The position numbers and the translations under genes are program-made. Below the pieces are notes generated by a model that saw only the letters and a program-made list of their open reading frames with translations, did not search any database and had not been told where the DNA came from. A stretch of DNA of 27,603 bases from Saccoglossus kowalevskii (taxonomy: Eukaryota; Hemichordata; Enteropneusta; Harrimaniidae): assembly GCF_000003605.2 (NCBI RefSeq), contig NW_003107604.1:28336-55938 (forward strand). Direction: 5' to 3'. This document shows, piece after piece, positions 3,333-25,370 of this stretch. How positions within the stretch are numbered: the first letter of the stretch is position 1; each line of letters starts with the position of its first letter.

Positions 3333-3683
3333 TTAAGACTTGTAAGGAGAAGCTGAAGGTGACGCTCTAGAGCTACTTACGTAACTCATTATTGCTGACT
3401 GTAACATATTAACACGTTGCGCTTCGTCTTCACGTATTCTAGCCATCTCCGCTTCCTTCATTCTCAACTTCTCAGATAACACTGACAGCTCGGATTCACG
3501 AGCTGCCAGAGTCTCTCTGTGTTGTTTAGATTGTTCCAGCATCTGCTTTTCAAGTCTCGTGCATTTTTCGCGAAGATCTTCCACTTCTTGGAGGTCAGAT
3601 TCCATTCGACTTATCTGTTTCTGGTAGTTCAACTTTACTTTATTTACTTCTGCTATAGTTTCATTACTTTTTCCGGATAATTC
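3333..3683 (-). CDS. LRRC45: LRRC45 coding exon 11 (terminal)
   Basis: Acceptor TATTTCAG. It encodes [15 protein letters not shown] to the stop, with the conserved [20 protein letters not shown] block and a Ser/Pro-rich tail ending SPYKS. A GTAAGT (minus strand, 3380-3375) sits in the tail and could act as a donor. The read-through tail resembles the family ending, so I keep it as coding. Confidence 0.94.
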   Translation of the reverse strand, partial: ELSGKSNETIAEVNKVKLNYQKQISRMESDLQEVEDLREKCTRLEKQMLEQSKQHRETLAARESELSVLSEKLRMKEAEMARIREDEAQRVNMLQSAIMSYVSSSRASPSASPYKS

Positions 3684-6600
3684 CTGAAATAATAGAAAAA
3701 TTGAATTAGACAGTAAAACATAATGATACACAAAAAATATACCAGGGTAACTGTGATACAGGATATTCATACATACACATTAAGAAAATATTAATTTTGA
3801 GACATATTTAAGTATTTAAAGACAGTTTAATATTCAACTGTAAATTCACCTGAATGCTTGCTGCAACAATAAATTGTTTACACTGTTTCCAAGTAATGAT
3901 ACTAATAAGTTTAGTAATCAAAAGCAAGACATCACATCCATCAAGCACATCACATTCATCAAGAATGCATCACATTGCAGAACAATGCATCACGTTCATC
4001 TAGAACAATGCATCATATTCATCTAGAACACATCACATTGCAGAACAATGCATCACGTTCATCTAGAATAATGCATCATATTCATCTAGAAAGTATCATA
4101 TTCATCTAGAAATTATCATATTCATCTAGAACGCATCATATTCATCTAGAACACATCACATTCATCCAGAACAACACATCATATTCATCTAGAACAATGC
4201 ATCATATTCATCTAGAACAACACATATTCATCTAGAACAACGCATCACATTGCAGAACAATGGATCACATTCATCTAGAACAACGCATCACATTGCAGAA
4301 CAATGCATCACGTTCATCTAGAATAATGCATCATATTCATCTAGAACATGTCATATTCATCTAGAAAGTATCATATTCATCTAGAACGCATCATATTCAT
4401 CTAGAACACATCACATTCATCCAGAACAACGCATCATATTCATCTAGAACAATGCATCATATTCATCTAGAACAACGCATCACATTGCAGAACAATGGAT
4501 CACATTCATCTAGAACAATGCATCATATTCATCTAGAACAATGCATCACATTCATCTAGAACAACACATATTCATCTAGAAAGTATCATATTCATCTAGA
4601 ACACATCATATTCATCCAGAACAATGCATCATATTCATCTAGAACAATGCATCATATTCATCTAGAACAATGCATCATATTCATCTAGAACAACGCATCA
4701 CATTGCAGAACAATGGATCACATTCATCTAGAACAACGCATATTCATCCAGAACAATGGATCACATTCATCCAGAAAAATGCATCATATTCATTTAGAAC
4801 ACATCACATTCATCCAGAACAACGCATCATATTCATCTAGAACAACACATGATGAGAAAGAATTGGTGATTCAATATGCAAGCTTTTTGATATTTGTTCT
4901 CTAATCGATGACATTATACTGATAACGAAAAGATTTATGAATTTCTAAAAAGTTATATCTTTAAGGTTTTATTTACCAAATTCAAGTCCTCCAGCTTCCT
5001 TTTCAATGACTCAACCTCAAGAGTAGCATTGCTGTATTTGGATTGGAACTCTGCAACCACCTGACTTTGTTGTGAATTGTGCTGTTGTAGGTCATCTTTT
5101 GCATTCTGTAGCATTCGGATCTTGTCTTCTAAGTGTTTACTTCTTTGTAGCTATAAATTTAACATATGGATGGTGTTATTTTAAAATTATTTATCATCTT
5201 CAGGGTAATGGCAATAAATAATATAAAACAAACTAAGTGAAATATCGAAAACAATACAGGCAAATATAAAAAAGGGAATGATTCAATTATAAAACATAAA
5301 ATTGTGTACCTCCTCTTCTTTGACTCTCTGCTTGGTTTGTAATAAATTTTCTTCATGTCCCATCCTTTCCGATAATTGAATTGCTTTTATTCTGCTCACT
5401 TCCTCTTCTAGGTTTAATCTGTGATGTTCCAATTTCTGTATCCTGTCTTTTAAGGCTTTTTCAGTGTCCTCTGCATCCTCTCTCACTCTCTGTAGCTCTT
5501 TCTCATGTTTCTGCTGAGCTTCTCGAAGGGCCTCCTTCGACTTCTGCTTCTCAACACTTATTTTCTCTACAATAACAATAATAATATGCAATGAAATAAC
5601 AAGTAGTCATAGGACTGAATGCACAAATATAATTTATAGAATAGTAATAATTGCTAATAAACATAGTTTGTTATTTGTGAATATAATATACTCAAATTAA
5701 AATTGAAAACAGATGATAATTAAAATGTAAACACAGATGAATCACTCTCCTACAATATTTTGCTATTGATTCAACATGATTATCATTTATAAAACAATTC
5801 AAATTTTCAGCACATTCAATTGTTGGCGATTGCTTCTACTTTAAATTTGATTGTTTGAATTTCATATACTGATTTGTTTGAAAAGTGTTCTATGTACATT
5901 CAAAAAGATTCACTTTTGTAACAAATTACTGTGGCCAGGATTATAATGAATTTAGACAAACCTTCAAATATTTCCAGTTCTTATCAACCCTTATTCTTAT
6001 CATCAAGTATTTTACATAATACTGGTGGTCTTAATTATGTTATATAAATGATTTCAGAGTAAAATTTTAAGAAATAACAGGTTTCACCTTTGTCAAATTA
6101 ACTTTCGAACAAGTTTTTAATAACTTTTACTCACCATCTGCTTGAGTGGCTTTTACTTTCATCTCAGCATTTTTTTCAGTAATATCTTCTTTTAATTCAT
6201 ATATCTGTTCTTGTTGCTGTTGACACTTTCGTTCCAATTCATCGACTCTATTTTCCAATTTCATGTTTCTGTCTTGAGTATCTGATAGCTCTTTTATTAG
6301 CTTGTTTTCAGATGAGTGTTTTTCCTGTAAGAGTATACACATGTATTCTTTGAATGCAGTAATTTTTTTCATCAAAATGTTGACGCCGTGGAATGTGCTG
6401 TCAATTTGATAATACAGTAAAATATATGAACCATATTTGGCAACATATATACTGTGAGGTCTAACATAATTTTGTTATTTATCACTATGCACGTTTAAAA
6501 ACTAAACCAATTCTTACAACTGTGATCACTGATCAACTAGTTTTTTTAATGTACTTGACATGTTCTAACTGGCATTCCACGGCCGACTGAGAATGAGTAA

Positions 6601-17483: not shown

Positions 17484-18683
17484 ATGTTTCAGAGAAGACG
17501 AGTCCAAAATATTCGATGTGTGTATTGGAAGAAAGTTGCGACCTTGGTCATTTGTGTGACGATATTCTTCGGATGCCGTTTTCTGCTGCTCAGTAAACGC
17601 GAGGTAAACAATCGTCTGCCCCAAGACTTCAAGGAGTTACGGCACAGAATTCCAGAACAGGGAAACCCAGCTGCTGCCGTCGGCAAATCGACAGGTATTC
17701 CGGAATTTCTTTCACACCATGCAAGAATTCATGGTCAGAGTTACGCACAGGTCAAGTTTGGTGATTCGTGTTATGAGATGGACAATAGAACGTTCTCCTA
17801 TTCAAAGCCACACAGCGACGATAAACTAACACTCAGGGGTTGTAGGAAGCGATTCCCCGATGCCCTCATTATCGGGTCTAAACAATGTAGCACTGTCAAC
17901 TTAGGTCATTTTCTGAGTTTTCATCCGTCCATTGCACTTAAACACAACAGAAGCAGCGAAGTTCATTTCTTCGATTTGCACCAAGATGAAGGATTCGCGT
18001 GGTACCGGGATCAGCTGCTCTATGCAACAAAACAACAGGTCGTCATGGAGAACACACCGCAGTACCTGACATGGCCTCATGACTGCGCTAAGAAAGTCCA
18101 CGATTACATCTCATCGAAGACGAAACTTGTTGTTATTCTGTGTGATCCAGTGAAGCGGGCAATCGCCGACTATGTCGCTTCTATCGCACCAAGACCGCGC
18201 GCTGACATCAACAAACGGAGACATTACAAAATCGGGAACACATTTGAACAGTCTGTCATCGATAACGAATATTCTGTTAATTCCATCAACTATTACAACG
18301 AACTTATAGACGCTGGTGTATACATCAAACACATACTGCCATGGTTAGAATATTTTCCCGGAAACCAAATGTACATCGCCGATGCTGGAGAGTTGGCAAG
18401 CGACCCATACGCAGAACTCCATCGACTGGAAGCGTTTCTTGGTCTTCCCGAATTCTTTTTCAGGGGACACTTTTATTTCGACGAAGTGAAGCGATTATAT
18501 TGCATGGCATTTCCATATAAACATTGCACCAATGACGGGGTAGACCCTCTAAACTATCCGGATGTAGATGATGCGATTCTTGATAAATTGTATGAATATT
18601 ATCATCCATATGACGCTCTATTGTCGGATATGTTCAACCGAACATTTTCCTGGATGGGAATATATGAAGAGTTGGCACTGTAA
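17484..18683 (+). CDS. Heparan-sulfate 3-O-sulfotransferase-like protein, possible pseudoenzyme
   Basis: The family moves a sulfo group from PAPS to the 3-OH of glucosamine in heparan sulfate in the Golgi lumen. This 399-residue intronless frame has a basic N-terminus, one signal-anchor helix (about 17-36), a stem, then a sulfotransferase domain (about 122-392). Fold motifs are clear: FPDALIIG (125-131), EVHFFD (159-164), FAWYRD (171-176), the Cys340/Cys348 pair and a C-terminal RTFSW. NRT, NRS and NRT glycosylation sites fit a luminal domain. Key residues differ. The loop usually written GVKKGGT is GSKQCST, with Gln134 where the essential Lys sits. The EKTP Lys is Asn190. RDP is CDP (Cys220). 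SDY is ADY (Ala228). The KGRxHP loop is DGVDPLNYP. The Glu/His/Asp of the catalytic base region remain (159, 161, 164). The frame is unbroken, so a retained non-catalytic or altered role is inferred. The start is uncertain if an intron ends at 17491. Confidence 0.88.
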   Translation: MFQRRRVQNIRCVYWKKVATLVICVTIFFGCRFLLLSKREVNNRLPQDFKELRHRIPEQGNPAAAVGKSTGIPEFLSHHARIHGQSYAQVKFGDSCYEMDNRTFSYSKPHSDDKLTLRGCRKRFPDALIIGSKQCSTVNLGHFLSFHPSIALKHNRSSEVHFFDLHQDEGFAWYRDQLLYATKQQVVMENTPQYLTWPHDCAKKVHDYISSKTKLVVILCDPVKRAIADYVASIAPRPRADINKRRHYKIGNTFEQSVIDNEYSVNSINYYNELIDAGVYIKHILPWLEYFPGNQMYIADAGELASDPYAELHRLEAFLGLPEFFFRGHFYFDEVKRLYCMAFPYKHCTNDGVDPLNYPDVDDAILDKLYEYYHPYDALLSDMFNRTFSWMGIYEELAL

Positions 18684-22856: not shown

Positions 22857-23561
22857 TTGTGTGACTCGAGTTTTTTAACTCGCACCTTAATTGATATCAG
22901 TGCACAGAGTGAAAGTGAGGCTTGGTTTCGATCAGACCAATTTCAAGTTCAAGCCAATATTAACAGTTTTAGTATGTGTGCGGCCAAGAATACCGGTATA
23001 TTTTCAGAAGAATGGATCGAAAAGTGGAAACCCTACAAACGAGTTGGCGAACCTTTACCGGGGACAAGAATGATCGTCTTTAAGACCCCGGTGGAAAAAA
23101 GCTTACTGGGAAACCTACTCCCAAAAGAAGACCTTTTTGGAATTGACGACCTGTTCAACGAAGTGGAGAGTCGTGGCTATACACTGGGAACCATTATCGA
23201 TCTCACATATAAGACCAATCTTTACTATGACTACAAAGATGTGATTGGCCGTGGCGTAGAATACGTGAAGATCCCTATATCCGGACAACAATCGGGAGCA
23301 GGTCAGTGCAGCCCGCCCGGGGATGAGTTAGTCGACAAGTTCTTCTTGGCCGTCGACCGTTTTATCGATCAAAACGTGGAGAATGAAAAGTTGATCGGTG
23401 TCCATTGTACCCAAGGTATCAACCGTAGCGGGTACATGGTATGTAGATACATGATAGACCGCATGGGAATGGATCCAGGTGATGTCATTGAAGCTTTTAC
23501 CAAAGCACGCGGGCATCGCATCGAAGCCGAACTTTATCTAGAAGATCTGAATCCAGTATAA
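22857..23561 (+). CDS. DUSP11/PIR1-like RNA 5'-triphosphatase, intronless
   Basis: DUSP11 belongs to the cysteine-phosphatase group that includes mRNA-capping triphosphatases. It removes gamma and beta phosphates from the 5' end of uncapped RNAs such as RNA polymerase III products. The frame encodes 234 residues. Family landmarks run in order: WIEKWKPYKRVG (53-64), PLPGTRMIVFKTP (67-79), DDLFNEV (97-103), IIDLT (113-117), RGVEYVKI (132-139), and the phosphate loop HCTQGINRSG (183-192), with catalytic Cys184 and Arg190 present. GYMVCRYMID and ARGHRIE follow. The usual ERQNY after the RGH motif reads EAELY, so one basic residue is lost. The true start may be Met40 (22974), which begins nearer the conserved region and follows an acceptor-like TTTTAG, giving 195 residues. 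Lack of introns across the whole catalytic domain suggests a retrocopy origin, now apparently old since no poly-A tail or target duplication is seen. Confidence 0.93.
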   Translation: MCDSSFLTRTLIDISAQSESEAWFRSDQFQVQANINSFSMCAAKNTGIFSEEWIEKWKPYKRVGEPLPGTRMIVFKTPVEKSLLGNLLPKEDLFGIDDLFNEVESRGYTLGTIIDLTYKTNLYYDYKDVIGRGVEYVKIPISGQQSGAGQCSPPGDELVDKFFLAVDRFIDQNVENEKLIGVHCTQGINRSGYMVCRYMIDRMGMDPGDVIEAFTKARGHRIEAELYLEDLNPV

Positions 23562-23862: not shown

Positions 23863-25370
23863 CAGTGCGTACGTGTAGCAGGGATATGAAAAAAGTCAAC
23901 TTCGCAGGAGGGAAATCCCCCACCCAAAATGCGTACGGGTATTATGGATACATAAACGTCAGTTTCATGGGAGGGGAACTTCCACAGTGCCTACGTGTAG
24001 CCAGGATATATAAAAGCCAGTTTCACAGGAGGGGAATCCCCACAGTGCCTACGTGTACAGAGATATATAAAAAGTCAACTTCGCAGGAGGGAAATCCCCC
24101 ACCCAAAATGCGTACGGGTATTATGGATACATAAACGTCAGTTTCATTGGAGGGGAACTCCCACAGTGCCTACGTGTAGCCTGGATATATAAAAGCCAGT
24201 TTCACAGGAAGGGAACCCCCACAGTGCCTACGTGTAGCATTGATATATAAAAGCCAGTTTCACGGGAGGGGAATCCCCCCACAGTGCGTACGTGTAGCCT
24301 GGATATATAAAAGCCAGTTTCACAAGAGGGGGACCCCCACAGTTCCTACGTGTAGCATGGGTATATAAAAGCCAGGTTCACAGGAGGGGAACCCCAACAG
24401 TGCCTATGTGTAGCATGGATATATAAAAGCCAGTTTCACGGGAGGGGAACCCCAACAGTGCGTACGTGTAGCCTGGATATATAAAAGCCAGTTTCACAGG
24501 ACGGGAACCCCAACAGTGCCTACGTGTAGCATGGATATATAAAAGCCAGTTTCAAGGGAGGGGAACCCCCACAGTGCGTACGTGTAGCCTGGATATATAA
24601 AAGCCAGTTTCACAGGAGGGGAATCCGGATCCCCCCACAGTGCGTATGTGTAGCCTGGATATATAAAAGCCAGTTTCACAGGAGGAGAATCCCCCCACAG
24701 TGCATACGTGTAGCATGGATATATAAAAGCCAGATTCACAGGAGGGGAATCCCCCACAGTGCGTATGTGTAGCCTGGATATATAAAAGCCAGTTTCACAG
24801 GAGGAGAATCCACCCAAAGTGCATGCGTGTAGCATGGATATATAAAAGCCAGATTCACAGGAGGGGAATTCCCCCCCCCCCCACAGTGCGTATGTGTAGT
24901 CTGGATATATAAAAGCCAGTTTCACAGGAGGGGAATCCCCCCACAGTGCGTATGTGTAGCTTGGATATATAAAAGCCAGTTTCACGGGAGGAGAATCCCC
25001 CCACAGTGCATACGTGTAGCATGGATATATAAAAGCCAGTTTCACAGGAGGAGAATCCCCCCCACAGTGCGTATGTGTAGCCTGGATATATAAAAGTCAG
25101 ATTCACAGGAGGGGGAATCCCCCCACAGTGCGTATGTGTAGTCTGGATATATAAAAGCCAGTTTCACAGGAGGGGAATCCCCCCACAGTGCGTATGTGTA
25201 GCTTGGATATATAAAAGCCAGTTTCACAGGAGGAGAATCCCCCCACAGTGCATACGTGTAGCATGGATATATAAAAGCCAGTTTCACAGGAGGAGAATCC
25301 CCCCACAGTGCATACGTGTAGCATGGATATATAAAAGCCAGTTTCACAGGAGGAGAATCCCCACAGTGCG
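23863..25370. repeat. 60-bp tandem array, about 25 units, most with a TATA-box sequence
   Basis: The unit is CACAGTGCGTACGTGTAGCC, then TGGATATATAAAAGCCAGTT, then TCACAGGAGGGGAATCCCCC. About 22 units hold TATATAAAA, and roughly seven hold GGGGAATCCCC. The first units are more diverged (GGATACATAAACGTC, ACCCAAAATGCGTACGGG). They form a larger period of about 178 bases (three units) that repeats once, while the right side is very uniform. One unit near 24625 has an extra GGATCC-bearing insertion. Because 60 is divisible by three, long open frames appear on the minus strand (24494-25045, 25042-25377). They read as a 20-residue repeat in more than one frame and are not called as genes. Confidence 0.96.

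Follow-up and report, generated by a model that had tools for sequence, protein, structure and literature searches.

A putative Golgi-type pseudo-sulfotransferase in an expanded HS3ST-related subfamily of Saccoglossus kowalevskii

The window analysed here is a 27,603-nucleotide stretch of the genome of the acorn worm Saccoglossus kowalevskii (contig NW_003107604.1), and its gene P0001 (17484-18683, plus strand) encodes a protein related to the heparan sulfate 3-O-sulfotransferases (HS3ST or 3-OST). With moderate confidence, P0001 is read as a Golgi-type (type II membrane) pseudo-sulfotransferase, that is, an HS3ST-derived fold predicted to be unable to hold the sulfate donor 3'-phosphoadenosine 5'-phosphosulfate (PAPS). 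The lysine of the phosphate-binding loop (P-loop), the lysine of the EKTP motif, the serine of the SDY motif and all basic residues of the KGR loop are lost in P0001, and most other conserved columns are kept. With an intact predicted fold and without the required catalytic and cofactor residues, the protein fits the description of a pseudoenzyme, as judged from sequence and model.

The gene and its predicted product

P0001 is open over 399 codons plus stop; the stop-to-stop frame comprises 409 codons, with ten extra codons 5' of the ATG before the upstream stop, and the minus strand of the interval contains numerous stops. The start region (17484-17492) reads ATGTTTCAG, in which a splice-acceptor-like string overlaps the start codon, and an upstream exon could hold the true initiator. 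The protein matches Pfam Sulfotransfer_1 (3.5e-12), and its best sequence matches in the PDB are HS3ST3A1 (6.6e-40), HS3ST5 (3.3e-38) and HS3ST1 (2.3e-36), with NDST1 at about 1e-12. The predicted model is a confident sulfotransferase fold nearest to the 3-OST structures, so that frame, family matches and fold agree with an earlier note, made from the sequence alone, that had described an unbroken 399-codon frame on a 3-O-sulfotransferase scaffold. The family match, the fold and the paralogues described below rule out a chance open frame. No family was matched in an NCBIfam scan of the protein, and an Rfam scan of the whole window gave no match. None of the 15 pattern matches obtained with P0001 in genome contigs is a relative, and neither is any of the six obtained in viral contigs with an alignment; P0001 itself gave no pattern match in the viral contigs.

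A hydrophobic stretch near the N-terminus corresponds to the signal anchor anticipated in the earlier note and, together with sequons at residues 101, 155 and 385, fits a type II Golgi protein, which is a predicted location. Just past the ADY helix lies the basic stretch NKRRHYK (residues 243-249, window 18210-18230; KRRHYK is 244-249), which we take to be heparin-binding-like.

The features of the gene are listed below. Residue equivalences come from an alignment of P0001, 16 paralogues and canonical rows, with HS3ST1 numbering unless 3-OST-3 is named; the alignment is the basis of each line unless another is given.

17484..18683, plus strand: HS3ST-like protein P0001, encoded by one uninterrupted frame of 399 codons and a stop (open reading frame, Pfam and PDB sequence matches)
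17535..17591, plus strand: predicted signal anchor or transmembrane helix spanning roughly residues 18-36 (hydropathy maximum of 2.4 at residue 18)
17769..17771, plus strand: stem Cys96 within S-C-Y, conserved across the subfamily (16 of 17, with a gap in L024) and without counterpart in canonical rows
17841..17843, plus strand: Cys120 at the domain start, likewise conserved across the subfamily (16 of 17; L024 has Ala) and non-Cys in canonical HS3ST
17874..17897, plus strand: P-loop G131-V138, GSKQCSTV; Lys68 is replaced by Gln134 (all 16 paralogues have Lys) and Arg72 by Val138 (Arg in 0 of 16)
17958..17975, plus strand: EVHFFD, 159-164; counterparts of 3-OST-3 Glu184, His186 and Asp189 retained
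18048..18059, plus strand: ENTP, 189-192, replacing EKTP; Lys123 is Asn190 (14 Lys and 2 Arg among the paralogues)
18141..18149, plus strand: CDP, 220-222, replacing RDP; Arg151 is Cys220, and the whole subfamily (17 of 17) has Cys
18165..18173, plus strand: ADY, 228-230, replacing SDY; Ser159 is Ala228 (Ala is shared with L018 and L019; the remaining 14 paralogues have Ser)
18501..18527, plus strand: Cys340...Cys348 pair, shared by every subfamily member (17 of 17) and by HS3ST1, HS3ST3A1 and HS3ST5
18528..18557, plus strand: loop 349-358, TNDGVDPLNY, at the expected place of KGRxH, with 0 basic residues, as in L024 (the remaining 15 paralogues carry 1 to 9; residue count)

Donor and acceptor sites

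The RDP arginine and the SDY serine hold the 3'-phosphate of PAPS, as known from cytosolic sulfotransferases. The alignment places Gln134, Asn190, Cys220 and Ala228 of P0001 at Lys68, Lys123, Arg151 and Ser159 of HS3ST1, as the earlier note had assigned them, and likewise recovers the EVHFFD region and the Cys340/Cys348 pair that it had named. Its further claim that the KGRxHP loop is gone holds independently of the alignment, because there is no Lys or Arg between Cys348 and Pro359, which also rules out a KGR motif hidden by a shifted alignment. In 3-OST-1 and 3-OST-3, nine residues matter for activity (3-OST-3 Lys162, Arg166, Glu184, His186, Asp189, Lys215, Gln255, Lys368 and Arg370; PMC8341778), all of which are present in human HS3ST1, HS3ST3A1 and HS3ST5 and in a canonical gene piece of the acorn worm (L025). 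P0001 retains three of the nine, namely the Glu, His and Asp of EVHFFD. Since little remains to hold the PAPS phosphates, P0001 would reside in the Golgi without transferring sulfate.

The acceptor side is altered as well. Acceptor contacts of 3-OST-3 include Arg166, Lys215, Gln255, Lys259, Lys368, Arg370, Arg173, Arg179, Arg190, Ser284 and Gly365 (PMC8341778); the first six were mapped, the alignment being loose around Lys259. All six are replaced in P0001 (Val138, Asn190, Ala232, Pro236 and no counterparts of Lys368 and Arg370). It is therefore doubtful that heparan sulfate is bound in the ancestral manner, which weakens the earlier suggestion that the protein may bind glycans through its old cleft; the other sulfate donor proposed alongside it found no support.

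With regard to cysteines, a disulfide between Cys96 and Cys120 is possible. The first P-loop glycine of human HS3ST is Cys in P0001, in all 16 paralogues and in the canonical L025 and L027, so this change is older than the subfamily in this lineage. A disulfide from Cys135 to Cys220 that would block the donor site was considered and dropped, as canonical L025 pairs Cys135 with Arg at position 220.

A subfamily with enzyme-like and divergent members

A family census of the source assembly (572 Mb, 4830 contigs; all counts are lower bounds) yielded at least 20 genomic matches, comprising the P0001 gene, 16 paralogues (L009-L024) and three canonical HS3ST pieces (L025, L026 and L027). Two of the canonical pieces, L026 (contig C2934) and L027 (C2692), are HS3ST3-like exons on small contigs, and their presence indicates that ordinary HS3ST genes have also been retained in the genome. 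No further sulfotransferase match was found in three stretches flanking on contig C218 and at one end of C217, a weak test because much of the sequence is N (9962 of 9962 in L030, 4565 of 9936 in L029 and 6485 of 9900 in L032).

The paralogues share 29-41% identity with P0001 and have open frames of 361-451 codons. In an unrooted tree with only four canonical rows and no other animals, the 17 rows carrying CDP split from L025, HS3ST1, HS3ST3A1 and HS3ST5 with branch support 97/94. Half of the paralogues (8 of 16) are enzyme-like, keeping the P-loop Lys, Glu/His/Asp and KGR. Among the others the motif reads KGQ in L016 and KGL in L017 and is lost in L010, L012, L018, L019, L023 and L024, with a Lys still aligned at the first KGR place in 14 of 16 paralogues. 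The P-loop Arg is missing from all 17 members, and by the alignment this absence and Cys220 are old subfamily traits. The earlier note had counted Cys220 among the losses of P0001; it cannot be private to this gene because every member carries it, including the eight enzyme-like ones, and it need not imply inactivity, since NDST1 has Asn at the Arg151 position (aligned by eye).

Unique to P0001 are Gln134 and Asn190. Because all 16 paralogues keep Lys or Arg at these positions, parsimony places both losses on the P0001 branch, and the order of events would have been that the subfamily first came to carry Cys in place of Arg151 and to be without Arg at 72, and that Lys134 and Lys190 were then lost on the gene's own branch. 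The eight enzyme-like sisters also lack equivalents of Arg166 and Gln255, so that the subfamily may use a different acceptor. Since Gln163 is absent from 15 of 16 paralogues, this acceptor, present or past, is probably not the heparan sulfate sequence on which 3-OST enzymes usually act.

A different loss is seen in L012, L018 and L019, which lie within about 55 kb of each other (contig C2922, 334-389 kb) and form one clade (support 100/100). Their catalytic Glu-x-His-x-x-Asp has become P-L-E/D-x-F-S and the P-loop Lys is kept, and L018 retains a confidently predicted fold, with a predicted local distance difference test score (pLDDT) of 87.6. They appear to be a second, complementary kind of pseudo-sulfotransferase. 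In L023, which sits on a long branch, Glu is replaced by Asp and His by Lys. Judged from these sequences, key residues have been lost by differing routes in no fewer than two, and probably three, of the subfamily's lineages.

Selection or decay

If P0001 lacks the reaction, it would have been retained since its folded lumenal domain has another role, the likeliest putative one being that of a non-catalytic partner or regulator of an enzyme-like paralogue, or of a protein that keeps a substrate, either a protein or a glycan, in place in the Golgi. The question is whether the frame reflects such retention or a paralogue silenced recently, its function lost lately and its frame not yet broken. 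Simulated neutral drift of the frame introduced a stop in 99.8% of 1000 runs at 0.1 changes per site; at 0.02 changes per site a stop appeared in 71%, and the 29% of frames still free of stops leave room for recent silencing. The low count of activity residues is compatible with silencing as well, and is shared by L018, L019 and L023, which likewise retain three of the nine.

The pattern of change points the other way. In columns where 90% or more of the other 20 rows agree, P0001 is changed at four of four active-site columns and two of 28 others (Fisher p 0.0004; column-test p values are uncorrected for multiple testing), and at an 80% cut-off at four of nine and six of 50 (p 0.036). As a control, the 80% test was applied to each of the other 20 rows, and p fell below 0.05 only for L012 and L018, both without the catalytic triad. 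Measured against all 16 paralogues at 80%, the p value is 0.013 for the nine activity residues and 0.011 for a set of fifteen sites that adds six of our own choosing (P-loop 69-71, 151, 159 and 275); against the eight enzyme-like paralogues only, it is 0.006 at both cut-offs (80% and full agreement) for the fifteen sites and 0.017 and 0.049 for the nine. Neutral decay would hit active-site and other columns alike, yet in P0001 several distinct active-site positions have changed and the KGR loop has been remodelled, against change in 12% of the other conserved columns, within the 4-16% of 14 of the 16 paralogues (27% in L023 and 33% in L024). The stem cysteines and the Cys340/348 pair are also intact.

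Fitting a codon model to 320 codons from 15 subfamily members yielded an overall ratio of nonsynonymous to synonymous substitution rates (omega) of 0.096. For the P0001 branch, with only adjoining branch lengths refitted, omega is 0.15 with a synonymous distance (dS) near 2; an omega of 1 is rejected (twice the log-likelihood difference 7.0), and the upper limit for omega is about 0.5. Because this average spans the time before and after the losses, it supports, without proving, selection on a dead enzyme. Taken with the targeted pattern, it makes recent silencing unlikely. The earlier note's proposal that the protein, but not its reaction, was maintained by selection is thus supported by the intact frame, the rejection of neutrality, the focus of change on the active site in most tests and the confident fold, and needs correction in respect of Cys220.

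Several points weigh against P0001 as a selected pseudoenzyme. The branch omega rests on paralogues with dS near 2, its profile is flat below about 0.2, and recent decay is still allowed. When agreement of all 16 paralogues is required, few columns qualify and the contrast is not significant (one of one against one of 22, p 0.087, for the nine residues; one of three against one of 20, p 0.25, for the fifteen sites). The placement of the gene within the subfamily has a best support of 84/85 with no starred branch, and its end branch is long (1.03 against a median of 0.59), with four of 16 paralogues longer. Lastly, retention of Glu159, His161 and Asp164 is odd for a protein free of chemistry.

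That last point favours a second alternative, in which P0001 is still a sulfotransferase whose donor site has been rebuilt, with Lys133 or other residues substituting and the retained triad acting on a new acceptor. Donor positions do vary among active enzymes, as the Asn of NDST1 illustrates, and Lys133 occupies the first basic position of the P-loop. However, Lys133 does not count as a gain that compensates, since 20 of the 21 other rows that have a residue at this position, next to Lys68, show Lys or Arg (L024 has Ile, and L026 is truncated). The remodelled loop also offers no basic residue, and a rebuilt site is improbable. A lectin-like pseudoenzyme whose former acceptor cleft still binds a chain resembling heparan sulfate is very unlikely, for although the fold, the triad and the basic KRRHYK past the ADY helix are present and inactive pseudoenzymes can in general recognise carbohydrates (PMC12274613), the six mapped acceptor contacts are replaced and KRRHYK lies in a model block of pLDDT 65 and is not common to the paralogues.

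Retaining the pseudo-sulfotransferase reading for P0001, one may ask whether the subfamily as a whole is divided into enzyme-like members, a donor-dead P0001 with Glu/His/Asp and the triad-less L012, L018 and L019, which would assemble into hetero-oligomers in the Golgi, with the acceptor choice or stability of live subunits governed by dead ones. Pseudo-glycosyltransferase partners are a known analogy for such complexes, on which this quite unlikely arrangement is modelled.

Comparison with known sulfotransferases

To our knowledge, no pseudoenzyme has been described in the HS3ST family, and a search of the open literature by title and start of abstract, with subscription papers mostly outside its scope, found neither HS3ST pseudoenzymes nor comparable expansions. 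As a class, however, 'pseudosulfotransferases' already figure among listed pseudoenzymes (PMC9539457). Compared with 3-OST-3, 3-OST-5 and 3-OST-1, P0001 is without the P-loop Lys and Arg, the EKTP Lys, the RDP Arg, the SDY Ser, the Gln255 equivalent and the KGR loop, and carries two extra cysteines. The N-sulfotransferase domain of NDST1, a PAPS enzyme with Lys614 and Lys833 in its donor site (PMC3733922), is a weaker sequence match than HS3ST.

A parallel is SULT4A1, a highly conserved protein with a sulfotransferase fold that, according to one report, bound neither PAPS nor PAP (3'-phosphoadenosine 5'-phosphate) as expressed protein, PAPS-dependent activity being undescribed there (PMC11275347); sulfate-dependent activity has been argued elsewhere (PMC8803991). 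It resembles P0001 in combining the fold with an absence of PAPS binding, which is predicted for P0001, but differs in being a cytosolic SULT that keeps its TYPKSGT P-loop and is set apart by a defect of its own, a shortened Loop 3 (PMC11275347). Large HS3ST sets exist, as 11 genes tied to acharan sulfate have been reported in the giant African snail, in a passage that makes no mention of lost residues (PMC10295696). Enzyme-like sisters differing from P0001 at the donor site within one genome would provide a ready system for studying a Golgi sulfotransferase fold without sulfate transfer.

Other features of the window

An open frame at 22857-23561 (plus strand) contains a dual-specificity phosphatase domain (Pfam DSPc, 4.9e-13) and presumably resembles DUSP11 or the mRNA-capping triphosphatase. 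Frames at 3333-3770 and 5283-5591 (minus strand) have the appearance of coiled-coil exons belonging to a larger gene, with no Pfam family above the cut-off. Long tandem arrays occupy 2-1653 (unit of 49 bases), 3979-4845 (23 bases) and 23863-25370 (60 bases, also as a 242-base unit), the last of which reads through as three overlapping minus-strand frames.
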